Shown: positions 2,451 through 27,768 of the stretch, piece by piece
How the letters are laid out: each line of letters begins with the position of its first letter
How positions within the stretch are numbered: the stretch's first letter is position 1
Source of the DNA: an uncultured Lachnospiraceae bacterium
GTDB taxonomy: Bacteria > Bacillota > Clostridia > Lachnospirales > Lachnospiraceae
Assembly: GCA_902781215.1 (NCBI GenBank)
Contig: CACZIO010000029.1
Span: 1 to 38,473 of the forward strand
Direction: 5' to 3'
DNA length: 38,473 bases
Made by a program: the position numbers and the translations under genes
Notes under the pieces: model-generated
What the model saw: the letters and a program-made list of their open reading frames with translations, nothing else
Databases searched by the model: none
Told to the model about the DNA's origin: nothing

Positions 2451-3167
2451 ATGAATCTGGCAGTGATTTTTGCGGGCGGATCTGGAAAAAGAATGCATGC
2501 CAAGGACAGGCCCAAGCAGTTCCTGTTCGTCCACGGCAAGCCGATCATTGTCCACACCATCGAGATCTTTAACAGCCATCCGGAGATCGACGGGATCGTT
2601 GTCGTCTGCATCGAGGACTGGATCCCCTATATGAAGGAGCTGCAGTACACCTACCGCCTGGACAAGATCGCCTCGATCGTGCCCGGCGGTGAGACGGGTC
2701 AGATGTCGATCTACAACGGCCTGGCGGAGGCGGCGCGCATCTATGGCCGCAAGGACAACATCGTCCTCATCCACGACGGTGTCCGCCCGCTGATCGATGC
2801 CGACCTGATCACGGCCAATCTGCGCTCCGTGGAGAAGCACGGCACCAGCATCAGCTGCGGACCTGTGAGCGAGACGGTCGTCCTGATCGGAGGCTCGGAG
2901 CATGTCGAACAGGTCGTCAACCGGGACAACTCGCGTGTCGCCAAGGCGCCGCAGGGCTACTGGCTGGATGACGTTCTGTCTGTCGAGGAACAGTCGATCC
3001 GGGACGGCCTGACCAATATGATCGACACCTGTACACTGATGCGGCACTACGGGCGGGAACTCTCGATCGTCGACTGCCGGGCGGACAACGTCAAGATCAC
3101 GACACCCGAGGACTTCTTCATGTTCCGCGCTGTGGCGGACGCCAGGGAGAACGAACAGCTGGGTTGA
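2451..3167 (+). CDS. IspD/TarI-family cytidylyltransferase
   Basis: A 238-residue GT-A-like nucleotidyltransferase. The nucleotide-binding loop AGGSGKRM is at residues 8-15, followed by the RPKQF motif. Further landmarks are HDGVRPLID near residue 107, KAPQGYW near 165 and the VKITTPED signature near 220. Family members make CDP-methylerythritol (IspD) or CDP-ribitol (TarI) from CTP. Context (epimerase 54 bp upstream, GT2 downstream) favours a TarI-like role in supplying a CDP-activated alditol for a surface polymer over the isoprenoid role, but the sequence alone does not settle it. A purine-rich ribosome binding site (repeated GAGGAGAAA) precedes the ATG. Confidence 0.8.
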   Translation: MNLAVIFAGGSGKRMHAKDRPKQFLFVHGKPIIVHTIEIFNSHPEIDGIVVVCIEDWIPYMKELQYTYRLDKIASIVPGGETGQMSIYNGLAEAARIYGRKDNIVLIHDGVRPLIDADLITANLRSVEKHGTSISCGPVSETVVLIGGSEHVEQVVNRDNSRVAKAPQGYWLDDVLSVEEQSIRDGLTNMIDTCTLMRHYGRELSIVDCRADNVKITTPEDFFMFRAVADARENEQLG

Positions 3168-8613: not shown

Positions 8614-10527
8614 ATGAGTGGAGCAATCAACAGAGAGCGGCTCGCGGCGCTGCGGGCCATCATGACAGAGGAGAAGATCGATTATTATCTGATCCCGACG
8701 GCGGACTATCACAATTCGGAGTATGTCGCACCCTTTTTTCAGACAAGACACTATTTCAGCGGATTTTCGGGATCCAGCGGGACCCTGGTCGTCGGCCGAA
8801 AGGAGGCCGGCCTGTGGACGGACGGAAGATATTTCATACAGGCGGAAAAGGAACTGGCCGGGACCGGCGTCGACCTCTACAGAGATATGGAGGAGGGCGT
8901 CCCGACGGTATCGGAGTGGCTGGCGGACCGCCTGCCTGCCGGAGGCACCCTTGCCTTTGACGGACGCTGCCTGAACGTCGTGACCGTCCGGAACCTTCGG
9001 AAAAAACTGGCGGACAAAAAGATCCGCTTCCGCATTGACCGCGATCCCGCGGAGGGGATCTGGCAGGACCGCCCGGCGCTGCCCTCGCATCCCGCCTTTG
9101 TACTGGATGAAAAGTACAGCGGGGAGAGCGCGCAGGATAAACTCGGACGGCTGCGGGCCGCCATGCGGAAGGCTGGCGCGGGCGTCTACGTGGACAGCAT
9201 GCTGGACAACCTCATGTGGCTCTTCAATCTGCGCGGCCGCGATGTGGAGTGCACACCTGTCGCCCTGAGCTTCGGCGTCGTGACCCAGGACCGTCAGATC
9301 CTCTTCCTGCAGGAGAATGAAGTGACCGCGGAGGTCCGGTCCTATGCCGACTCGATCGGCCTGGAGCTCAGGCCCTACGACGCGGTCTACGCCTTTCTCG
9401 AGGACCCTGCCCTCTACCTTCCGGCAGACGGTGCACAGGGCAGTGAGAAAACAAAGGTCATGTGCGATCCCTCCGGCCTCAGCATCTGTCTGTGGAATTC
9501 CATCAGACGGGGGAGGTTCGGCGGAGAGGATGCGGACGGATCCGGTCCCGCGGAAGTCCGGCCGGAACCTGTGACCGGGATCGTGGAGCGCCGCAGCCCT
9601 GTCGTGGCCTTCAAGGCGGTCAAGAACGAGACGGAGCTCGCCAACATCCGCGCCTGCTACCGGGACGACTCGGCGGCAGTCTGCAGATTCCTCTACTGGA
9701 TCGATCAGCATGTCAAAAACGGGACCGTCGGCAGCCTGACGGAGCTGACGGCCGCTGACCATATGGACGGCCTGCGGGCGCAGATCGATGACTTTGTGGA
9801 GCTGTCCTTCGGGACGATCTCGGCCTACGGGCCCAATGCGGCCATGATGCACTACAGCGCAAAGCCGGACGACTGCGCGCAGCTCAGGCCCGAGGGAATG
9901 CTGCTGGTCGACTGCGGAGGTCAGTACCTGCGCGGCACGACGGATGTGACGAGGACCACGGCGCTCGGGCCGGTCACGGACGAGATGCGCCGCCACTACA
10001 CCCTCACGGCGGTCGGCAATCTCCAGCTGCTGGACGCGGTCTTCCTGTACGGCTGCACCGGCAGGAACGTGGATATCCTGGCCCGCCAGCCCCTCTGGCG
10101 CACCTTTGTGGATTACAAGTGCGGGACCGGCCACGGCATCGGCTATCTGCTGGGCGTCCACGAGGGACCCCAGAATATCCGCTGGCGCTTTGCCAACGGT
10201 ATGCAGGAGGCTGTCCTGGAGCCCGGCATGATCGTGTCGGACGAGCCCGGCGTCTACATTGAGGGCCGGTACGGCATCCGGATCGAGACCATCCTCGAGG
10301 TGGTCGAGGCGGCGAAAAACGGCGACGGCAGGTTCCTGCGCTTTGCGCCCCTCACCCTGGTCCCTCTGGACAGAAACCTCATCGACCCCGCATACCTGAC
10401 CCCGCAGACCAGGGAGGTCCTCGACCGCTACCACGCCCGCGTCTACGAGGAGGTCGGCCCCCTGCTGACACAGGAGGAGCGGGACTGGCTCCGCGAACAG
10501 ACCCGCCCGGTCGAAACGGCTGTCTGA
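8614..10527 (+). CDS. Xaa-Pro aminopeptidase (M24B, aminopeptidase P)
   Basis: A 637-residue cytosolic metallopeptidase of the three-domain eukaryote-like aminopeptidase P type, which removes N-terminal residues ahead of proline. Two creatinase-like N-terminal domains (e.g. YYLIPTADYHNSEYV, FSGSSGTLVVG, LWTDGRYFIQAEKEL) precede the C-terminal pita-bread domain. That domain holds the dinuclear metal ligands: Asp in LLVDCGGQYL and TTDVTRT, His in GTGHGIGYLLGVHEGP, and Glu in VSDEPGVYIE and GIRIET. Residues ~290-315 hold a charged insertion. The ribosome binding site is weak (GGAG ~12 nt upstream). It probably works with the M18 enzyme downstream in peptide use. Confidence 0.92.
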   Translation: MSGAINRERLAALRAIMTEEKIDYYLIPTADYHNSEYVAPFFQTRHYFSGFSGSSGTLVVGRKEAGLWTDGRYFIQAEKELAGTGVDLYRDMEEGVPTVSEWLADRLPAGGTLAFDGRCLNVVTVRNLRKKLADKKIRFRIDRDPAEGIWQDRPALPSHPAFVLDEKYSGESAQDKLGRLRAAMRKAGAGVYVDSMLDNLMWLFNLRGRDVECTPVALSFGVVTQDRQILFLQENEVTAEVRSYADSIGLELRPYDAVYAFLEDPALYLPADGAQGSEKTKVMCDPSGLSICLWNSIRRGRFGGEDADGSGPAEVRPEPVTGIVERRSPVVAFKAVKNETELANIRACYRDDSAAVCRFLYWIDQHVKNGTVGSLTELTAADHMDGLRAQIDDFVELSFGTISAYGPNAAMMHYSAKPDDCAQLRPEGMLLVDCGGQYLRGTTDVTRTTALGPVTDEMRRHYTLTAVGNLQLLDAVFLYGCTGRNVDILARQPLWRTFVDYKCGTGHGIGYLLGVHEGPQNIRWRFANGMQEAVLEPGMIVSDEPGVYIEGRYGIRIETILEVVEAAKNGDGRFLRFAPLTLVPLDRNLIDPAYLTPQTREVLDRYHARVYEEVGPLLTQEERDWLREQTRPVETAV

Positions 10528-17845: not shown

Positions 17846-17875
17846 TGTACATCCGAACGCAATGTGTGTTAGAAT
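17846..17875 (+). promoter_or_regulatory. Possible promoter of the polysaccharide cluster
   Basis: TGTACA (17846-17851) and TAGAAT (17870-17875) are 18 bp apart. The predicted start would fall at or next to the ATG at 17883, suggesting a leaderless or very short-leader transcript. Confidence 0.45.
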
Positions 17876-17882
17876 AGGAGCC

Positions 17883-19019
17883 ATGAATGCGAATGTAAAC
17901 TACAGAATTGAGAGAAATATACATCGGACAGGGATCCTGCTCTCGGTGATCATTCCATCCCACAATGCGGAAAAAACGCTGCGGCGGGCGGTGGATAGCG
18001 TGGTCCGGGCCATACAGGTCATCGCTGAGAACGCGACGCTGTCAGCCCGCAAGGCGCAGGAAGCAGACGGGAGCGGTCCCGGGACGGCGCCGCTCTGTGA
18101 GATCCTGGTCATCGAGAACGAGTCGGAGGACGGGACGGCGGCACTGGCCCTGGAGCTGCAGGCGGAGCACCCGGAGTGCGTGTTTGTGCTCCATTCCAAA
18201 TCCGGCGTCTCCTATGCCCGCAACCGGGGGCTGGAGGCGGCGAGAGGAGAGTGGATCCTCTTCCTGGATGCGGATGATTACCTCATGGAGGGGGCAGGGG
18301 AGGCCCTGCGGGATGACCTGCTTTTTACAGGGACGGACCTCATCGTCCACAGCTATGAGTCCGGCGACCGGGTGGTGAGCATCTGCGCCTCCCAGGGGGA
18401 GCGCTTTGCCGGCAGAGACCTCATGCCGGCCTGCGTGCGGATGATCGAGAACCCGACCAGGTACACGTCTGTCTGGTCCAAGCTCTTCCGCAGGGAGCGG
18501 ATCGAGTACGCGCACCTGCGCTTTGATACAGACCTCAGGCTGTCGGAGGACAGCCACTTCCTGATCCGCTATCTGGCGGCATGCAGGCGGATCCGCATGG
18601 TGGACCGGCCGTTTTATCACTATTCGACGGACAACGCCTCGGTGGTGCGCACCTGGGACGGCAGAAAGGAAGAGGGCTACCGGAAGGCGCTGGCTGAGGT
18701 ACAGAAATACCTGGCGACGCAGCCGGAGCAGATCCGCGCCGCCTTTGCGGGCTACGGTATGATGCAGTTCAATCTCCTCATGGTAAGGGAGGTCTTTGCC
18801 GCGGGCGCCCGCATGTCGCTGGCGGACAAGATCCGGAATATGAAGCGGATCAGTCAGGAGGAACCTTTTGCCACAGCCATCCGGGGCTATGACCCGGACC
18901 GGCACAAGGGGGCAAGATATCTTCCCATCCGTCTTCTCATCAGGGGCTTTGCGCCGGGCGCGGCTGCGGTCTATGAGGCGCGCGTCCTGCAGAACGCCCG
19001 CAAAGAACGCATGCATTGA
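17883..19019 (+). CDS. Glycosyltransferase family 2
   Basis: A 378-residue GT-A glycosyltransferase, first gene of the main surface-polysaccharide cluster. SVIIPSHNAEKTLRRAVDSV begins the fold, followed by VIENESEDGT (in place of the more usual VNDGSxDGT), SYARNRGLEAARGEWILFLDADDYL with the metal-binding DADD motif, and a C-terminal region without clear membrane spans. A Gly/Ala/Glu-rich insert of ~25 residues (near 45-70) splits the N-terminal fold. The start at 17883 is uncertain: an AGGAG lies only 2-3 nt upstream, too close for normal use, while 17862 has no site at all. Substrates are unknown. Confidence 0.83.
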   Translation: MNANVNYRIERNIHRTGILLSVIIPSHNAEKTLRRAVDSVVRAIQVIAENATLSARKAQEADGSGPGTAPLCEILVIENESEDGTAALALELQAEHPECVFVLHSKSGVSYARNRGLEAARGEWILFLDADDYLMEGAGEALRDDLLFTGTDLIVHSYESGDRVVSICASQGERFAGRDLMPACVRMIENPTRYTSVWSKLFRRERIEYAHLRFDTDLRLSEDSHFLIRYLAACRRIRMVDRPFYHYSTDNASVVRTWDGRKEEGYRKALAEVQKYLATQPEQIRAAFAGYGMMQFNLLMVREVFAAGARMSLADKIRNMKRISQEEPFATAIRGYDPDRHKGARYLPIRLLIRGFAPGAAAVYEARVLQNARKERMH

Positions 19020-19177: not shown

Positions 19178-20332
19178 ATGTACAACATCCTCGTATTCGG
19201 CATGACGGAGAACCCCGGCGGGGTGGAGAGCTTTCTCATGAATTATTACCGGCGGATGGACAGGAGCCGGTTCCAGCTGGATTTCCTGTGCAATTCCTTT
19301 GCGCCGGTCGCCTTTGAGGATGAGATCCTGGCGCTGGGAGGGCACACCTTCCACTTTACCTCGAGGAGAAAGAACCCGGTCCGCTTCCACAGGGAACTGG
19401 GGGCCTTTTTCCGCGAGAATGCAGGGAAATATCAGGCCATCTGGGTCAATGTCAACAGCCTGGCCAATATCGACTACCTCAAGATGGCAAAACAATACGG
19501 CATACCGGGCAGGATCATCCACAGCCACAACGCGCAGAATATGGATACGAAGCTGCGCGGTGTCCTGCATGAGATGAACCGGGGCGCAGTCGGCAGATAC
19601 GCCACTGACTTCTGGGCCTGTTCGGAGTATGCGGCAAAGTGGTTCTATGCCGGGCCGGGCGGAAAGGGCCGCCTGCATCATCCGGCCGTGGTCATTCACA
19701 ACGCCATCGATGTGGAGCGGATCCAGGCGGGCATCGCCTGCAGGGAGAAATACCGGAAGGAACTGGGCTGGGAGGACAACTATGTGCTGGCCTGCATCGG
19801 CCGGCTCCACTTTCAGAAAAATCAGAAATTCGCCCTCGATGTGATGCGGGTCCTGCAGGGCAGGATGCCCGACGCGAGGCTCCTCCTGATCGGTCAGGGG
19901 GAGGACGAGGATATGCTGCGGACCATCGCCCGGGAGTACGGGCTGGGAAAACGGGTCCGTTTTGCCGGCGTCGTCGAGGATGTGGCCGGATGGCTGGGCG
20001 CCGCGGACTTTTTCCTCTTCCCGTCGGTCTTTGAGGGACTGGGGATCGCGGGCCTGGAGGCCCAGGCGGCAGGGCTGCCGACCCTGGCTTCCGCGCGCGT
20101 CATTCCAAAGGATATCGCCGTGACGGACCTGCTCCGTTTTTATCCCCTGGAAAAGGGGCCTGAAAAATGGGCGGAAATGGTCGTGCAGATGCGCAGGCGC
20201 ATGCCCGCAAGACCGCAGTCCGCAGAGGATCCGGCCTTTGCCGGGATCGTCGATGCATTTACACAGAAGGGATATAACAGCGCGGTGGAGATCCGCCGGC
20301 TGGAGAAGCTTCTGGAGGAGGCTTGCAGATGA
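19178..20332 (+). CDS. Glycosyltransferase family 4 (GT-B)
   Basis: A 384-residue GT-B glycosyltransferase. The N-terminal acceptor domain starts ILVFGMTENPGGVESFLMNYYR, and HSHNAQNMDTKLR follows near residue 110. The C-terminal donor domain has IGRLHFQKNQKFALDVMRVL, LLIGQGEDEDMLR, VRFAGVVEDV and the family-4 signature PSVFEGLGIAGLEAQAAGLP with the E-x7-E pattern. This arrangement is typical of bacterial surface-glycan enzymes. The ribosome binding site is AGGAGA. A CTTCAGG/CCTGAAG hairpin (19141-19162) sits just upstream. The stop overlaps the next start (ATGA), indicating translational coupling to licD. Confidence 0.88.
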   Translation: MYNILVFGMTENPGGVESFLMNYYRRMDRSRFQLDFLCNSFAPVAFEDEILALGGHTFHFTSRRKNPVRFHRELGAFFRENAGKYQAIWVNVNSLANIDYLKMAKQYGIPGRIIHSHNAQNMDTKLRGVLHEMNRGAVGRYATDFWACSEYAAKWFYAGPGGKGRLHHPAVVIHNAIDVERIQAGIACREKYRKELGWEDNYVLACIGRLHFQKNQKFALDVMRVLQGRMPDARLLLIGQGEDEDMLRTIAREYGLGKRVRFAGVVEDVAGWLGAADFFLFPSVFEGLGIAGLEAQAAGLPTLASARVIPKDIAVTDLLRFYPLEKGPEKWAEMVVQMRRRMPARPQSAEDPAFAGIVDAFTQKGYNSAVEIRRLEKLLEEACR

Positions 20333-21186
20333 AAAAACTGACACTGGATGAGATCCGCGGTCTGGAACTGGAGATCCTGGATGCCTTTGCGGCGCTCTGC
20401 GAGCGCAATCATATATATTTCACACTGGGCGGAGGGACCCTGCTGGGCGCGATCCGTCACCACGGCTTTATTCCCTGGGATGACGATATCGATGTCATGA
20501 TGCCCCGGCCCGATTACGAGCGGCTCTTTCACCCGGAGGATCTGGACCTGACCGGTTTCCCCTCCTACCTGGAGTTCAAGAGCTACCGGGACGGGAGCCT
20601 CAGCTACCCCTTTATCAAGATCGTGGATACCCGCACCCATGTGGAATTCCCCTACTACGACAGCGAGGAGAATGTCAACCAGGTCTGGATGGATGTATTC
20701 CCGATCGACGGCAATCCGGTCGACAAGAAGGAAAACCGCCGCCTGTATGAGAAGTCCCTGCGCCTCAGGAAGCTGATCTTTATCAAGATCGCCAAGAAGG
20801 GAGAGGGAAAGACGGCCCTCAAGCGCCTCCTCAAGCCGGCTGTGATCGCGGCCCTCAAGGTCGCCGTTCCCATGAACAGGCTGCTGGAGAGGATCGACAG
20901 GCTCTCACAGACCGTGCCCTATGACAGCACGCCCTATGTCGGCTGTGTCATGTGGGGGTACGGGCCCCGCGAGCGCATGTCGCGCAAAAAGTTCATGATC
21001 CCGGTCATGGTTGATTTCGAGGGGCGGAAGATGCCGGCGCCCTCCAATTATGACCACTATCTGCGCGGCCTGTTTCACGATTATATGAAGCTGCCGCCGG
21101 TGGAGAAGCGCGTCATGCACGGCATGGATGCCTGGCTCCTGGAGGACGGCGAGACCGCAGCGGATATCACGGATGCGGACAGATAA
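20329..21186 (+). CDS. LicD-family phosphotransferase
   Basis: A 285-residue LicD-family protein, the group that attaches phosphocholine or other phospho-polyol units from CDP donors to surface polymers. The nucleotidyltransferase-like core is clear: GGGTLLGAIRHHGFIPWDDDIDVMM near residues 35-60 with the metal-binding DDDID. QVWMDVFPIDG comes later, and a WGYGPRERM segment with the C-terminal Arg-rich part follows. The ATG at 20329 overlaps the upstream TGA, with GGAGGA 11 nt before it; a TTG at 20323 is less likely. The TarI-like cytidylyltransferase at 2451 could supply its CDP-linked donor. Donor identity cannot be read from sequence. Confidence 0.88.
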   Translation: MKKLTLDEIRGLELEILDAFAALCERNHIYFTLGGGTLLGAIRHHGFIPWDDDIDVMMPRPDYERLFHPEDLDLTGFPSYLEFKSYRDGSLSYPFIKIVDTRTHVEFPYYDSEENVNQVWMDVFPIDGNPVDKKENRRLYEKSLRLRKLIFIKIAKKGEGKTALKRLLKPAVIAALKVAVPMNRLLERIDRLSQTVPYDSTPYVGCVMWGYGPRERMSRKKFMIPVMVDFEGRKMPAPSNYDHYLRGLFHDYMKLPPVEKRVMHGMDAWLLEDGETAADITDADR

Positions 21187-21198
21187 TGGAGGAAATCC

Positions 21199-24180
21199 AT
21201 GGTTTTTGACAGCAGGGCTGTCCGGCTGAGGATCCCGCAGGAGGATGTGCGGGTGCGGCTGGATGAGCTCATGACCTTTGCGGGACTCATACTCTGGATC
21301 CTGCAGGCCTATATCGATGACACCGGCTTCGGCGTCATCTTCGGGACGGAACTGGGCAAGCTCATCAGGTATTTCTGCCTGCTGCTCTTCCTGGTCAGGA
21401 TCCTGCTCTCCGATATGCACCTGGCGGTCCGGGCGGTCTGTACGGCCGCGGTCGGCTTCTGCTACCTGATGATGATTCAGCAGATGGCGGGCGCAGGGAT
21501 CAAATTTCTGCAGCTGTTTGTCATGATGATGGCGATCCGGGGGATCTCCTTCCGCCGGCTCTGCAAGGTCATGTTCTGGAGCTGCCTGTTGTGTTATCTG
21601 GGAACCTTGTTTTTTGACGGCGTCGGCCTGATCTGGCAGCCGCCCCTGATCGACGGGAACCGGGTCCGCGACTACATGGGATTCCGCTTCGTGTCCTTCC
21701 CCGCGATCTATCTCTTCAACCTGTTTTTCTGCGGATGTTACGCCTATACGGATCATCCTGACCAGGCCGGTGAAAAAAGGCAGCGCGGTACACATGTACA
21801 GAAGATGCCCCTGTGGGCGCTCTTTCTGCTGGAAGCGGTCAATGTCCTGGTCTACGTGCGGACCAACACCAACATCCCTTTCCTGGTCATCAGCCTCTTC
21901 GTCGTGCTGTATCTCATCTGCATGTACGGGGGCGTGGAGCTGTTTCCGGACTGCGGCCTGATGCGCTTTCTGGCAGGGATCTGCTATCCCGTGCTGGCGT
22001 ATTTTACCTACTGGGTCGTCTCGCACTACAATGCCAACAACAGCCGCTGGGTCAAGATCGATGACAAGCTGACGCACTTTCGCATCCGCCATGCCGCGGA
22101 GGGACTTAAACGCTACGGGATCCGGCCCTTCAGCCAGGTCGTCTATCAGAACGGTGACCTGCAGTCGCCCAACTATTTTTATATCGACAGCGCTTACATG
22201 AAGGTCCTGATCAACTACGGTCTGGTCTTTGCCGTGATCCTGTTTGGAATCTACGCCATGATCTCTGTGGCCGCGGTCAAAAACCGCGACACCACACTCT
22301 GCATCTGGATGGTCTGTATCGCAGGCTACAGCCTGATGAACAATGTCCTGCTGGATCCGGAACAGTGCTGCACCCTCTTTGCCTTCTGGTATGCCCTGGA
22401 GGTGTTCGGCATCGGAAAAAAGAAGGCCCTGTCGCCGCCGGATGGAAACAGCGGTCACGGGCCTGTCACGGCCAGCCGGCCGGCTTCACCGGGCGCAGGG
22501 CGGGAAGAGTCCCGTGGTTTCTCTGCTGTAGCTGTGCCGGGTTTATCTGAAAGAAATGTAACAGAGGAAACGGAAACACGGAGAGGATCAGTGAAAGCGG
22601 GTGAGCCGGTTATAAAAAACGTCCCGGAAACAGAAAGCGGACCGGCAGAACCGGAGGCGGACTCCCTGAATAAGTCCGGGACCGGAGCTCCGTCCGACGC
22701 CGGCAATCCCAAAAAGAAAAAGAACGACGAGCCCAGTGTCCGCCTGAATTTCATCCTGAGCATGGCCTATCAGGTCCTGGTCGTCGTCCTGCCCATGATC
22801 ACGGCGCCCTATGTCTCCCGGGTTCTCGGGGCGGATAAAAACGGCATCTACAGCTTCACGGCGTCCTACCAGACCTATTTTTCCATGTTTGCGGCCCTGG
22901 GGACTGTCTCCTACGGTTCGAGGGAGATCGCACGCAACCGCAAGGACCGGCCGCTCCGCTCGAAGCTCTTCTGGGAGATCGAGCTGATGACGGTCCTGAC
23001 ATCGACGGTCTCGCTCATTGCCTTCATCGCCTTTTTCATGCTGCGGGACCGCTACCGGATCTACTATGTGCCGCAGGTGATGGCCATTCTGGCGGTCATG
23101 TTCGATATCTCCTGGTTCTTTACAGGCATTGAGGAGTTCCGCTATATCGTGACCAAAAATGCCGCCTTCAAGCTCCTGGGCGCCGTGCTGATCTTTACGC
23201 TGGTGCACAGGCCGGAGGACCTGCTGATCTATATCACGATCCTGTCCGCGACGACCATGATCGGGAACATGTCCATGTGGATCCATATGCCGCGCTTTCT
23301 GGACAGGGTGGATTTCAAGAGCCTCCGGGTCCGCAGGCATCTGAAGGAGACCATGGTCTACTTCGTCCCCTCGATCGCGACGTCCGTCTACACCGTGCTG
23401 GACAAGACACTGATCGGTGAGATCACCCGCAACGAGGCGGAAAACGGATATTATGACCGGGTCGTCCAGCTGATCAACATCATGAAGGCCCTGACCTTCA
23501 CTGCCCTCAACAGCGTCCTGGGGGCGAGGATCTCCTACCTGTTCGCGGAGAAGAGGTACGATGAGATCCGCCGCAGGATCGAGACGTCGATCAACTATAT
23601 CCTCTTCATGGGCCTGGGGATCTGCTTCGGCCTGTCCGCGGTCGCCCCGCGGTTCATCCCCTGGTTCCTGGGACCGGGCTATGAGCGGTCGATCACCATG
23701 CTGATCCTGATGAGCCCGATCGTCGTGATCATCGGCGTCAGCAACTGCCTGGGATCCCAGTACTTTACACCGGCGGGCAAGCGCGCCCAGAGCGCGCGGT
23801 TCATTATCGCCGGTTCCTGTGTCAACCTGGTCCTGAACCTGATCCTGATCCCCCGCTATTGGGGGTACGGGGCGATCATCGCATCGCTGATCGCGGAGCT
23901 GACGATCACGGTCCTGTATGTCGCCTTTTCGGGGGAGTCTTTCCATCCGGCTGTTCTCATACGGGACGGGTGGAAAAAGCTCCTGGCAGCGGCGCTCATG
24001 TTCGCGGCGGCGCGTATGATCGACCCGCTGTTTCACGCAAATTTCCCCGCCCTGGCGGCAGAGGTCCTGCTCGGGGGCAGTGTTTATATCGCAGTACTTT
24101 TCCTGCTCCGCGACGGCTTCATGACCGGCTTCTGCATGGATGCCGTTCGCAGTGTGCTGAAGAGGCGCGGCAAAAAATAA
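21199..24180 (+). CDS. Fused polysaccharide polymerase (Wzy-like) and flippase (Wzx-like)
   Basis: A 993-residue integral membrane protein with two modules in one uninterrupted frame. Residues ~1-405 form a multi-span hydrophobic module with the O-antigen-polymerase layout: many helices, then an outward loop with DDKLTHFRIRHAAEGLKRYG followed by YFYIDSAYMKVLINYGLVFA. Residues ~406-513 are a hydrophilic, Pro/Gly/Glu/Ser-rich linker ending in a Lys run. Residues ~514-993 are a MOP/MviN-like flippase of the PST type (VLPMITAPYVSRVLGADKNG, SIATSVYTVLDKTLIG, then ISYLFAEKRYDEIRRRIE). These are normally two genes. The ribosome binding site GGAGG lies 6 nt before the ATG. A GTG at 22591 with GAGAGG ahead could allow internal translation of the flippase half. 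Confidence 0.82.
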   Translation: MVFDSRAVRLRIPQEDVRVRLDELMTFAGLILWILQAYIDDTGFGVIFGTELGKLIRYFCLLLFLVRILLSDMHLAVRAVCTAAVGFCYLMMIQQMAGAGIKFLQLFVMMMAIRGISFRRLCKVMFWSCLLCYLGTLFFDGVGLIWQPPLIDGNRVRDYMGFRFVSFPAIYLFNLFFCGCYAYTDHPDQAGEKRQRGTHVQKMPLWALFLLEAVNVLVYVRTNTNIPFLVISLFVVLYLICMYGGVELFPDCGLMRFLAGICYPVLAYFTYWVVSHYNANNSRWVKIDDKLTHFRIRHAAEGLKRYGIRPFSQVVYQNGDLQSPNYFYIDSAYMKVLINYGLVFAVILFGIYAMISVAAVKNRDTTLCIWMVCIAGYSLMNNVLLDPEQCCTLFAFWYALEVFGIGKKKALSPPDGNSGHGPVTASRPASPGAGREESRGFSAVAVPGLSERNVTEETETRRGSVKAGEPVIKNVPETESGPAEPEADSLNKSGTGAPSDAGNPKKKKNDEPSVRLNFILSMAYQVLVVVLPMITAPYVSRVLGADKNGIYSFTASYQTYFSMFAALGTVSYGSREIARNRKDRPLRSKLFWEIELMTVLTSTVSLIAFIAFFMLRDRYRIYYVPQVMAILAVMFDISWFFTGIEEFRYIVTKNAAFKLLGAVLIFTLVHRPEDLLIYITILSATTMIGNMSMWIHMPRFLDRVDFKSLRVRRHLKETMVYFVPSIATSVYTVLDKTLIGEITRNEAENGYYDRVVQLINIMKALTFTALNSVLGARISYLFAEKRYDEIRRRIETSINYILFMGLGICFGLSAVAPRFIPWFLGPGYERSITMLILMSPIVVIIGVSNCLGSQYFTPAGKRAQSARFIIAGSCVNLVLNLILIPRYWGYGAIIASLIAELTITVLYVAFSGESFHPAVLIRDGWKKLLAAALMFAAARMIDPLFHANFPALAAEVLLGGSVYIAVLFLLRDGFMTGFCMDAVRSVLKRRGKK

Positions 24181-24198
24181 GAAATGGGAGGAAGTGTT

Positions 24199-25650
24199 TT
24201 GAGCAATCAGAATTATCTGCACCGCAATCAGACGGACGCAAAGATGCGGGAGGTGAGCCTGCCCAGGCTCCTGCTGCTGACTCTGCGCAGGTGGCGGAGC
24301 ATGCTGGTCGTCGGCCTGGTCCTGGCGGTCCTGCTGGCCGGCATGAAGGTCGTGCGCGAGTACCGCAACAGGGGCGTCTCCAATACGGCGCATGAGGAAT
24401 ACCTGGCCGCGATGGAGATCTACAATACCTCTGTCGAGTCCTACACGACGGCGATCGAACGCTTCCAGACCAAGATCGACGCCAAGCAGAAGTATTTCAA
24501 TGAATCGCTCCTGATGCAGATCGACCCGCACAATGAGTGTGCATCCACGGTCACCATGGTCGTGCGCACGCCCGGCCTGGAGCAGGCGGACCAGAAGACG
24601 CCCGAGGCGGGGGACACCCAGAGTGCCGCTGTGGTCAATGCCAGCAATGTCGTCCATGCCTACACGGATTACATCATGAACGGGATCTCCTATGACGAGA
24701 TCGCCGCTTCGCTGGGCGTGACGGAACAGAGCGTCCGGGAACTGGTCCTGGTCTCGGCAGACCAGTTCCATTTCAGCAGTGAGTTCAAGATCCAGGCGCG
24801 CAGCATGAATATGGACACCTCCAAACAGATCATGGATCATATCCTGGAGGAGCTCGACAGGAACAGAACAGCCTTTGCCGGATCCCTGGGCCAGTATGAG
24901 ATCAGTCAGGTCAGCCGGAGTGAGGAGTCGGTGGTCGACACCATCCTGCTCCAGCAGCAGACCGAGCTCCAGAACTCGATCGCGACCCTGCAGAGGAACC
25001 TGCAGACCTCCCAGACCAGCCTCAAGGAGCTGATCAAGCCCACCGAGGCGACCGGGGCTTCCACGAAGACCATCATCAAGCACGGGATCAAGTACGGTGT
25101 CGTCGGCATGGCCGGCGGGATCTTCCTCATGATCCTGCTGTACGCAGTGCGGATCCTCCTCAAGGGCAGGATCCTGACAGACGACGAGCTCACCCTGGCC
25201 TACGGCGTGCGCAACCTCCTGACCTTCCCGGCAGGAAAGGGCAGGAAGGAAAAGCGCTTCCCGGTCGACAGACTGGTGGAGTCCCTGATCAATGATTCTC
25301 CCGATATGAGCGTCGCCGAGGCCTGCGATGTCCTGATCGCCAAGGCGGAGGCCTTTACGGGAGCTTCCTCGCAGAACAAGAACATCATGCTCACGGGGAC
25401 CATCGGCGAGGGACGGCTCAATTCCTTTGCTTCCACCCTCTCCAAACGGGCGAAAGAATCGGGAAGCCCGCTTTCATTCTCGGCTGCCCCGGGGATCGAC
25501 AGGAACGCGTCGGCGGTGCGCAGTCTCAGGAACGCGGATGCCTGCATCGTCGTGGAGGAAATCGGCGGCAGCGTCTACCGCGAAGCTTCACAGGAGGTCG
25601 AACTGATCCTGGCCTCCGGAACACCCCTTCTGGGAACCGTCTATCTGTGA
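24199..25650 (+). CDS. Wzz-like chain-length/capsule biosynthesis protein with kinase-like tail
   Basis: A ~483-residue polysaccharide co-polymerase-like protein. A short cytosolic N-terminus leads to a first membrane span (~residues 33-55, SMLVVGLVLAVLLAGM). A ~245-residue outside region with helical, Gln-rich stretches follows, then a second span (GMAGGIFLMILLYAVRIL). The ~160-residue cytosolic tail resembles a BY-kinase (Wzc/CpsD) fold, but the Walker A reads GEGRL instead of GEGKS/T and no Walker A' LLIDxD is seen, so it is probably inactive. The TTG at 24199 was chosen because GGGAGG lies ~8 nt upstream; an ATG at 24184 overlaps that site. It is the last gene before the cluster terminator. 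Confidence 0.8.
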   Translation: MSNQNYLHRNQTDAKMREVSLPRLLLLTLRRWRSMLVVGLVLAVLLAGMKVVREYRNRGVSNTAHEEYLAAMEIYNTSVESYTTAIERFQTKIDAKQKYFNESLLMQIDPHNECASTVTMVVRTPGLEQADQKTPEAGDTQSAAVVNASNVVHAYTDYIMNGISYDEIAASLGVTEQSVRELVLVSADQFHFSSEFKIQARSMNMDTSKQIMDHILEELDRNRTAFAGSLGQYEISQVSRSEESVVDTILLQQQTELQNSIATLQRNLQTSQTSLKELIKPTEATGASTKTIIKHGIKYGVVGMAGGIFLMILLYAVRILLKGRILTDDELTLAYGVRNLLTFPAGKGRKEKRFPVDRLVESLINDSPDMSVAEACDVLIAKAEAFTGASSQNKNIMLTGTIGEGRLNSFASTLSKRAKESGSPLSFSAAPGIDRNASAVRSLRNADACIVVEEIGGSVYREASQEVELILASGTPLLGTVYL

Positions 25651-25720: not shown

Positions 25721-25860
25721 GGATGTCCTGCCTTTTGCAGGCCGCAGGAGCAATCCGTCAGGTGCCCCGCGGACGGGAAACCGTGATACCTCCGGGGAGA
25801 TGTGCTGCCTCTTATGTGCCGCAGGAGCAATCCGGCAGGCGCCCCGCGGACGGAATACCG
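25721..25860 (+). repeat. Tandem duplication with 77-bp period upstream of the CotH-like gene
   Basis: A ~63-bp unit at 25721-25783 is repeated imperfectly at 25798-25860. The best-conserved core begins GCCGCAGGAGCAATCCG in both copies (25741 and 25818) and runs on to GCGGACGG. The segment lies in the 5' region of the CotH-like gene and has no recognised function. Confidence 0.75.
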
Positions 25861-25890
25861 GCGGGGCGGAGGAGAAGGAATCAGATATCA

Positions 25891-27768
25891 ATGAACATGT
25901 GGAAAAACAAAACCATCCTTGCTCTCCTGACGGGAGTTCTGGCGGCGGGATGCCTGTATGTGCTTTCCCTGGAGGGAGGCACGGCCTTTTCCGGCGGAAC
26001 GGGCGCGGCAGGAGATGGATTCGGCCCGGTCCGGATCCTGGAGGCGGACGAATACAGGCAGAAGACGGAAGGAAAGGCGGAGGAGCCTTTTTTCGGGGAT
26101 GACCTGGTCTGGCAGGGCGGCAGGGCTGCCTGCGAGGCATCGGCGTCCGCTGTCTACATCCCCTGTGACCCGGAGATGCTGCAGACCTGGGAGTCGGCCT
26201 GGACCGGACAGGATGATGAAACTGCATCCGCAGGAGCGACGGAAGCGGGCCGGGACGACGGCAAAAGGGAAGATAAAACCGAGGACGGGATCCCGCGCGT
26301 GAATGATCAGTGGGAAGAGCTCCTGGAGGAGCTGGCACCTGCCTCCGGGAAGGGAGAGATATTCTTACAGGAGGATCCGTATCTGATGACACCGGCGGCT
26401 GCCATGCGGGAGGGCCACGCCTTCCGGGCCTGCCTGTGCACAGAGGAGAGTGCACGATCATTTTCCATCGTCCTGACGGGTCTCCCGGCCGTCTGCATGA
26501 CGAAGACAGACCAGGAGGAGATTCAGAGAAAAGAGGTCCATACAGGCCTGATCACTGTGATCGAACCGCGGACGGTTCAGGATCCTGCGGCCGGTCCGGC
26601 TGAGGCCGGGCAGACAGAATCCGGGCGGAACGGCACGGGCGCGGGCGCTGGTCCGCTCCGCTGCACCTTCCATGTGCGGGGCAATGTGACCTCCACACTG
26701 GCCAAGAAGCCCTACCGGGTCTCGCTCCTGGATGCGGCCGGCGGCAAGGCCAAAGTCAGCTGGCTGGGGCTGCGCAGCGATGACGACTGGATCCTCAACC
26801 CGCTCTATACCGATGCCACCCGGGTGCGGGAGAAGACCGCCTACGCCCTGTGGGAGGAGGCGGCTGCCTGCGCGGAGGCCCCGCAGCCTTCGTCGCACCT
26901 GCGGTATGTGGAGCTCTTTATGGACGATGCCTGTCAGGGGATCTACTGCCTGATGGAGCCGGTGGACGGGAAGCAGCTGGGACTGGAGACGGGGGATCTC
27001 CTCTACAAGATCGACCGCTGGGACTATGAATATCCCTACCTGGACCTGTACGGGGACGCCCAGGCAGCGCAGGAGACGGAGATCTACAATGACTACGGCT
27101 ACCCCTGCGTGGAGATCAAATATCCCCGGACCTGGGACGGGACCGCGTCCTGGGACCCCATGCGGCTCTACCATGATTTTTCCTTCCGGACCGGCGATCC
27201 GGCGGCGCTGACGGAAGCGGGGCTGCAGACGGACCTGGACAGCGTCGTCACGCTGAGCCTCTTCTGTGCCATGACCCACGCCATGGACAACAACTGGAAG
27301 AACAGCTTCCTGATCGCATATGCTGCGGACGGCGCGGCAGAAAAGACCGGAGAGGGCAGCTATGTGCTGCGCCGGACGACCTGGGACCTGAACTATGTTT
27401 TCGGGGATGTCTTTTTGTTTGATCCGGAAAAAGGCTATACGGAGTTTGACCCGGGGACGGCCTTTCTGTACACGCCCGGGCAGGACAGCACCTTTGATTT
27501 CGAGGCATTTCTGGCGGCGGATCCGTCCCTGGAGGATGCCCTGCGGGATAAATGGGCGGTCTGGCGGAAGGCCGGGATCAGTGCAGACCGGATCATCGCC
27601 CTCGCCCGGGAAAACCGTGACCTGCTCCTGCAGAGCGGGGCCATGGAGCGGGAGAAAAGCCTGTGGCCGCAGGAGACGGACGATGAGGAGGCCATGGACC
27701 GGATGGAGACCTGGATCCGGAGAAGATTCCTTTTTCTGGATGAAATTTTCGGATATCAGGAACCCTGA
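25891..27768 (+). CDS. CotH kinase family protein, membrane-anchored
   Basis: A 625-residue protein of the CotH family, atypical protein kinases first known from spore coats. A basic N-terminus and hydrophobic span (residues ~8-27, ILALLTGVLAAGCLYVLSL) predict surface anchoring; AAGC could be a weak lipobox, but the hydrophobic stretch continues past the Cys. CotH features: FHVRGNVTSTLAKKPYRVSL, WLGLRSDDDWILNPLYTDATRVREKTAYALWE, YVELFMDDACQGIYCLMEPVD and, near the C-terminus, TTWDLNYVFGD. In that last motif the second acidic residue of the usual WDxD is Asn. The ATG at 25891 was chosen for GAAGGAA 10 nt upstream and because the membrane span follows. Substrate unknown. Confidence 0.82.
   Translation: MNMWKNKTILALLTGVLAAGCLYVLSLEGGTAFSGGTGAAGDGFGPVRILEADEYRQKTEGKAEEPFFGDDLVWQGGRAACEASASAVYIPCDPEMLQTWESAWTGQDDETASAGATEAGRDDGKREDKTEDGIPRVNDQWEELLEELAPASGKGEIFLQEDPYLMTPAAAMREGHAFRACLCTEESARSFSIVLTGLPAVCMTKTDQEEIQRKEVHTGLITVIEPRTVQDPAAGPAEAGQTESGRNGTGAGAGPLRCTFHVRGNVTSTLAKKPYRVSLLDAAGGKAKVSWLGLRSDDDWILNPLYTDATRVREKTAYALWEEAAACAEAPQPSSHLRYVELFMDDACQGIYCLMEPVDGKQLGLETGDLLYKIDRWDYEYPYLDLYGDAQAAQETEIYNDYGYPCVEIKYPRTWDGTASWDPMRLYHDFSFRTGDPAALTEAGLQTDLDSVVTLSLFCAMTHAMDNNWKNSFLIAYAADGAAEKTGEGSYVLRRTTWDLNYVFGDVFLFDPEKGYTEFDPGTAFLYTPGQDSTFDFEAFLAADPSLEDALRDKWAVWRKAGISADRIIALARENRDLLLQSGAMEREKSLWPQETDDEEAMDRMETWIRRRFLFLDEIFGYQEP

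Follow-up and report, generated by a model that had tools for sequence, protein, structure and literature searches.

A putative fusion of a Wzy-type polymerase and a Wzx/TacF-type flippase in gut Lachnospiraceae

Introduction

Can the flippase and the polymerase of a surface glycan pathway be made as one protein? This question is raised by a stretch of DNA from an uncultured Lachnospiraceae bacterium (GenBank assembly GCA_902781215.1, contig CACZIO010000029.1, positions 1 to 38,473 of the forward strand), which we will call the window. The window is contig C29 of a draft genome of 3.33 Mb, which has 132 contigs and is 94.67% complete. On its forward strand, positions 21199-24180 seem to encode both proteins in a single gene. 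The original prediction, which was made from the DNA sequence without database searches, was that a polymerase-like half and a flippase-like half had been fused.

Whether Wzx (the flippase) and Wzy (the polymerase) are in contact is an old question, and most of the evidence is indirect. According to the accessible text of a 2023 paper, complementation data prompted the proposal of a Wzx-Wzy-Wzz complex (PMC10030265). In the available portion of an earlier article, Wzy-Wzz is given as the only interaction confirmed as of 2015 (PMC4863624). As for the flippase TacF, a 2026 paper states in its accessible text that it has not been reported to interact directly with TarP or TarQ (PMC13385700).

Results

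One frame with two membrane halves

With the standard genetic code, 21199-24180 translates to a single open frame of 993 residues, from an ATG start to a terminal stop codon, without an internal stop, as originally claimed. (We considered a changed genetic code and rejected it as unnecessary, since the standard code already yields the open frame.) The domain limits that were first proposed also agree with our analysis:

21199..24180, + strand: putative fused Wzy-type polymerase and Wzx-type flippase gene, 993 amino acids, calculated mass 111.9 kDa
21188..21193, + strand: GGAGGA, with 5 bases between it and the ATG; a likely ribosome-binding site for the fused gene (read from the sequence; function predicted)
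21199..22413, + strand: polymerase half (residues 1-405), with 12 membrane helices (our own segmentation of the structural model) and a large loop at 276-341
22414..22737, + strand: linker (residues 406-513), hydrophilic and rich in Lys at either end; predicted to be disordered
22738..24177, + strand: flippase half, residues 514-993; MOP fold, TacF/Wzx type

The original prediction proposed searching the two halves separately against family profiles. This identified residues 514-993 as a member of PF01943 (Polysacc_synt), while for residues 1-405, 0 Pfam families matched.

The PF01943 match covers residues 4-261 of the flippase half (E = 1.2e-26; 94.2 bits, versus a cutoff of 28.2). By structure comparison, this half has a MOP fold like that of MurJ or WzxE. 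The only solved chain that matches it by sequence is the chain of 9xzn that is named teichoic acid subunit flippase, which we take to be TacF. Family, fold, and the TacF-type match together bear out the claim that the last ~480 residues are a flippase. The assignment to the Wzx/TacF type is secure, and the half is predicted to transport lipid-linked oligosaccharides. The window's genome has six matches to PF01943. Only one of these, besides the fused protein itself, matched the fused protein by sequence, and at just 22% identity, so we saw no unfused copy of the Wzy-Wzx pair in this genome.

For the polymerase half, the identification is less strong. Neither Foldseek nor profile searches against PDB gave a significant match for it, and just 2 of its 47 homologues match PF04932 (Wzy_C), weakly (best E = 3e-4). 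An AlphaFold2 model of this half has a mean confidence (predicted local distance difference test, or pLDDT) of 89, and by structure comparison it is closest in fold to WaaL (a ligase), FtsW, and RodA. Wzy polymerases share a fold with WaaL and the SEDS polymerases, and their large outer loop carries charged residues that are conserved. In the polymerase half, the loop at 276-341, which would lie outside the cell, includes R295, Y326, D330, and G341, which are invariant across the 47 homologues; H293 is invariant in the 20 closer homologues. The polymerase half is also genetically linked to flippase, glycosyltransferase, and Wzz-like genes. WaaL, FtsW, and RodA resemble it in fold, but they lack a sequence match to it and their gene setting differs. 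Because of the WaaL/FtsW/RodA fold, the conserved residues, the gene order, and the two homologues that touch Wzy_C, we think that the N-terminal half is probably a Wzy-type polymerase, with its activity predicted. The earlier description of the first ~405 residues as polymerase-like thus holds up, although no family matches them directly.

The fusion is shared by ten genomes of the genus

We searched 62 genomes of the genus with the polymerase half and considered matches with E of 1e-140 or better to be strong. There was some match in 39 of the 62 genomes and a strong match in 34; the other 28 had none or a weak one. Among the 34 strong matches, 24 lie in frames of 418-521 amino acids and 10 lie in frames of 961-1059 amino acids, which are the fused forms. 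So, as the original prediction had suggested looking for, the same fusion is found in relatives. Our scan of the named genomes gave 49 loci, nine of them fused; these nine are among the ten fused forms above. One of the nine (NZ_FNFZ01000010.1) is from Sarcina sp. DSM 11001, which has a culture-collection number and is presumably an isolate. The rest are from genomes whose titles include metagenome-assembled genome (MAG) or "uncultured"; one is from sheep duodenum, and several have RUG names, which are presumably rumen genomes.

To which arrangement does the fused gene trace back? In 23 of 25 close non-fused loci (L110-L134), wzx lies directly behind wzy and overlaps it by 8-32 bases, always in the same other frame. 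(We used the nearest start for wzx, which lies 7-31 bases upstream of the final base of the wzy stop codon; in L130, an alternative wzx start 2 bases after the wzy stop is also possible.) Of the remaining two, L125 ends at a contig edge. The other, L111, has no flippase match beside wzy; instead, there is a frame at 9290-10134 that, by eye, looks like a secreted transglutaminase. In 12 split pairs whose junctions we read, wzx begins with TTG nine times and with ATG three times, and an upstream site containing AGG is present in 10.

On trees, the fused rows are on one side of a single branch, whether we consider the flippase (10 fused rows of 41; support 100/100), the polymerase (10 of 44; 100/100), or four genes of the host (10 of 30; quick method, support 100). 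The gene queA is upstream of 23 of the 25 non-fused loci and of 7 of 9 fused loci, and the remainder are cut by contig ends. Downstream, all 9 of these fused loci have rnfC, versus 13 of 25 non-fused loci; a number of long non-fused loci (L110, L113, and L117 among them) have no rnfC in the stretch that we examined.

The fusion is genuine and apparently arose once and was then inherited. Because the split genes overlap behind the same queA and the fused rows group together in the trees, the sequences indicate that the fused gene is descended from an overlapping wzy-wzx pair at the same locus. The join required a change of frame as well as added linker DNA, and the exact event is no longer readable.

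The linker stays open while its sequence drifts

We compared the linkers of the ten fused genes (the window and the nine named loci). Their lengths range from 62 to 174 residues; the longest, in L108, is of uncertain length because it contains a stretch of N. Across the 45 pairs of fused genes, the linkers are on average 37.5% identical, versus 79.9% and 84.7% for the two halves; the mean ratio of nonsynonymous to synonymous differences (pN/pS) is 0.61 in the linker versus 0.19 and 0.15 in the halves. The composition is consistently hydrophilic, with 49-65% P/G/A/S/T/Q/N and just 8-13% I/L/V/M/F/W/Y/C. In one species, the linker contains a 72-base (24-codon) tandem repeat with 2.8 copies. In the model of the window's protein, pLDDT is below 50 over residues 411-518. 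(We considered that the linker might be a former domain, and dropped this idea because of the low identity and the low model confidence.)

Shuffling the bases of each linker, which preserves base composition, left the frame open in just 1-7% of trials for every linker of the ten but the shortest, which stayed open in 43%. In 7 of 8 fused genes that we read, both of the other two linker frames hold stops; in G009, one of them is open as well. Since the linkers vary in length and sequence but stay open, the frame seems to be kept while the sequence drifts.

All ten linkers have at least two Lys or Arg within their first six residues, and nine of ten have at least two within their last twelve. 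MOP proteins have a cytoplasmic N terminus. Because of this, and because of the Lys/Arg residues at its ends, the linker would lie in the cytoplasm.

Might the flippase also be translated separately? In 7 of the 10 fused genes, including the window's, none of the in-frame starts close to the flippase domain is preceded by a ribosome-site-like sequence of at least 4 bases, and in L107 there is just a weak GTGA. An ATG lies 8 codons inside the flippase domain in 9 of the 10 (TTG in L103), without a ribosome-site-like sequence. The two sister species L108 and L109 differ: their flippase domain opens with an in-frame GTG codon that AGGAG or AGGAGG precedes, and judging from this signal, a separate flippase could also be made in these two.

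Neighboring genes and the likely pathway

The fused gene is part of a small set of glycan genes that follows queA:

17862..19019, + strand: GT2-family glycosyltransferase, the first gene of the set (PF00535, E = 7.2e-24); upstream in 9/9 other fused loci
19178..20332, + strand: GT4-family glycosyltransferase (PF00534, E = 1.3e-24); upstream in 9/9 other fused loci
20323..21186, + strand: LicD family, transferase of phosphocholine or a similar phospho-group (PF04991, E = 1.1e-42); overlaps the GT4 gene; upstream in 9/9 other fused loci
24184..25650, + strand: Wzz/PCP chain-length-regulator-like protein, 488 amino acids; starts 3 bases after the stop of the fused gene
25723..27768, + strand: CotH-kinase-like protein that has a single membrane helix, at its N terminus (PF08757, E = 6.9e-21)

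From its hydropathy, the protein encoded by 24184-25650 has two membrane helices (39-57 and 306-324) that flank a loop of ~250 residues, which is a shape like that of a Wzz-type chain-length regulator. Two of the 23 members of its family match PF02706 (Wzz), weakly (best E = 1.5e-4). The window's copy does not, and PF02706 had no match anywhere in the window's genome. A PDB profile search with this protein gave only chance-level rows.

Elsewhere in the genome there are two sugar-phosphate initiating transferases. LicD is found at four places in the genome, including 20323-21186, and one match to choline kinase (PF01633) is over the cutoff, in a 627-amino-acid frame elsewhere. Our best reading, by analogy to pneumococcal TacF/TarP, is that these genes form a short Wzx/Wzy-type pathway for a surface glycan that is decorated by LicD; the substrate is predicted. 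The pneumococcal system, in which TarP is the polymerase and TacF the flippase, shares with this locus a TacF-type flippase and an adjoining LicD gene, and both the LicD and the choline-kinase match that a choline-containing teichoic acid would call for are present in the window's genome. But TarP and TacF are separate proteins, and here the two kinds are fused. Similarly, the Wzx/Wzy pathways for the O antigen and the enterobacterial common antigen of E. coli have the same two kinds of protein, a Wzz-like neighbor, and nearby glycosyltransferases, but flippase and polymerase are separate there and one polypeptide here.

Elsewhere in the window, an NAD-dependent epimerase (1173-2396) lies beside an IspD-family cytidylyltransferase (2451-3167). 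Given that LicD is near, our guess is that this pair might make a CDP-activated alditol.

Other fusions and look-alikes

We searched for fusions across the genus, family, class, and phylum of the window. The family sample had 397 genomes, of which 116 match the flippase profile at E of 1e-20; we scored at most 4 first-look candidates per genome. Just three genomes have the flippase profile in a frame of over 700 amino acids: the window's, G901 (931 amino acids), and G876 (784-788 amino acids). In G901 (contig C164; L151 4662-7457), one frame encodes the flippase (PF01943, E = 2.4e-33) and, after it, a homologue of the Wzz-like protein of the window. A profile of the Wzz-like family, compared to 48 proteins, matched three of them: the G901 fusion (2.5e-25), an adjoining separate Wzz-like gene (3.7e-33), and one frame in L056 (1.1e-18). 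In G876 (contig C34; L152 3262-5616, - strand), a flippase and a LicD domain share one frame, which may be a transporter joined to the enzyme that decorates its substrate. Both involve the same broad flippase family with a pathway partner, but with another partner than in the window, and each is from a single draft genome among the 397. Because flippases are fused to three different partners from their pathway, the three fusions suggest that these proteins may form a complex.

In the class sample, 43 of 391 genomes match the flippase profile, and none but the window's has the match in a frame of over 530 amino acids. In the phylum sample, 296 of 299 genomes match PF01943, and among the matches listed, none is over 692 amino acids.

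Several long frames turned out to be something else. A 966-amino-acid frame in G005 was rejected because its 509-amino-acid flippase has its own start, and a 962-amino-acid frame in G031 because it holds a Wzy-like part that is extended at its N terminus. Wzy-like frames of 1085-1385 amino acids in another genus (g26; L090-L093) have neither a tblastn match to the flippase half nor a match to PF01943; these proteins have a long C-terminal part of unassigned kind. In G030 (contig C26; L060 7899-10397, - strand), a sugar-phosphate initiating transferase (PF02397) is joined to a flippase that matches PF01943 only from profile position 116 onward; this looks like a deletion fusion. Two other Wzy-like proteins (L156 4643-7054 and L056 6016-8826, - strand), of 803 and 936 amino acids, have an N-terminal extension with multiple helices and no Pfam match; by eye, the extension looks like an acyltransferase-type domain. 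Finally, in G739 (contig C24; L155 3247-5835), a single 862-amino-acid frame, whose true start is uncertain, encodes a GT2 glycosyltransferase domain together with a membrane domain that is weakly Wzy-like.

Discussion

We think it probable that the gene at 21199-24180 is a genuine, inherited fusion of a Wzy-type polymerase and a Wzx/TacF-type flippase that is made as one tethered polypeptide. The single frame, the family and fold of the flippase, the polymerase-like fold, the conservation, and the single group on the trees argue for this. That the N-terminal half is active as a polymerase, that the product stays uncut, that the linker is cytoplasmic, and what the substrate is are predictions, as is coupling.

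That assembly or sequencing joined two genes by mistake is scarcely credible. The window is from a draft in 132 contigs, and most of the other fused copies are from metagenome assemblies as well, but the same single frame is present in nine further genomes, one of them with a culture-collection number, and linkers of differing length are all in frame. The original prediction had judged a sequencing join less likely while allowing for an indel artifact, and the nine genomes support that judgment. It also seems very unlikely that the N-terminal half is a ligase that, like WaaL, transfers the glycan to a carrier or a protein. WaaL is among the closest folds, but polymerase genes usually sit beside flippase and Wzz genes, the N-terminal half adjoins a flippase and a Wzz-like gene, and we recognized no other candidate for the polymerase among the window genes that we scanned.

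The remaining alternatives accept the fused gene and differ in what becomes of it. One gene might give two proteins, if a protease cuts the linker or if the flippase is also translated from an internal start. A long disordered linker is an easy target for proteases, L108 and L109 have a good ribosome-site-like sequence before a GTG at the right place, and 9 of the 10 genes have an in-frame ATG soon after. But most of the fused genes, including the window's, have no such sequence, a start at the ATG would delete the first residues of the flippase domain, and we saw no conserved stretch in the linker that would be fit for cleavage, so we consider this quite doubtful. Or, the genes might have run together by an indel, with domains that work independently and a tether that has no functional effect. 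The variable length of the linker, its low identity and high pN/pS, and the tandem repeat fit with this, as only openness seems to be kept, and two separate genes suffice for 23 of 25 close relatives. On the other hand, the fused form has persisted in 10 species that differ greatly from one another at synonymous sites, and the fusions of flippases with regulator-like and LicD proteins in other genera (one draft genome each) hint at recurrent joining. We view a neutral fusion as unlikely, if less so than the preceding ideas.

If the fused gene does yield a single tethered protein, then it would consist of two membrane domains that a floppy linker joins on the cytoplasmic side. The GT2 and GT4 enzymes would build an undecaprenyl-linked repeat unit, and LicD would decorate it. 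The flippase half would move the undecaprenyl-linked unit to the outer face, where the adjoining polymerase half would join units into a chain, whose length would be set by the Wzz-like neighbor. The tether would fix a 1:1 ratio and hold flipped units close to the polymerase. Fusion might thereby couple flipping to polymerization, as was originally suggested. More speculatively, the single chain might couple the two steps physically and perhaps kinetically, with each flipped unit passed directly to the polymerase, and, taken with the flippase-regulator fusion, it might reflect a membrane complex of polymerase, flippase, and regulator; this is possible, but we would not count on it.

The protein families and the pathway are already known; what seems new is a natural single chain of Wzy and Wzx. 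Literature searches aimed at a Wzy-Wzx fusion or contact listed no report of such a fusion, in a collection that lacks most subscription papers and preprints. (In the available part of PMC11340318, "fused" refers to cloned flanks and not to Wzy-Wzx.) A fusion that is kept in ten species of animal-gut bacteria fixes the stoichiometry of the two proteins and makes contact between Wzx and Wzy directly testable. The merged protein is a natural test of whether flipping and chain joining cooperate.
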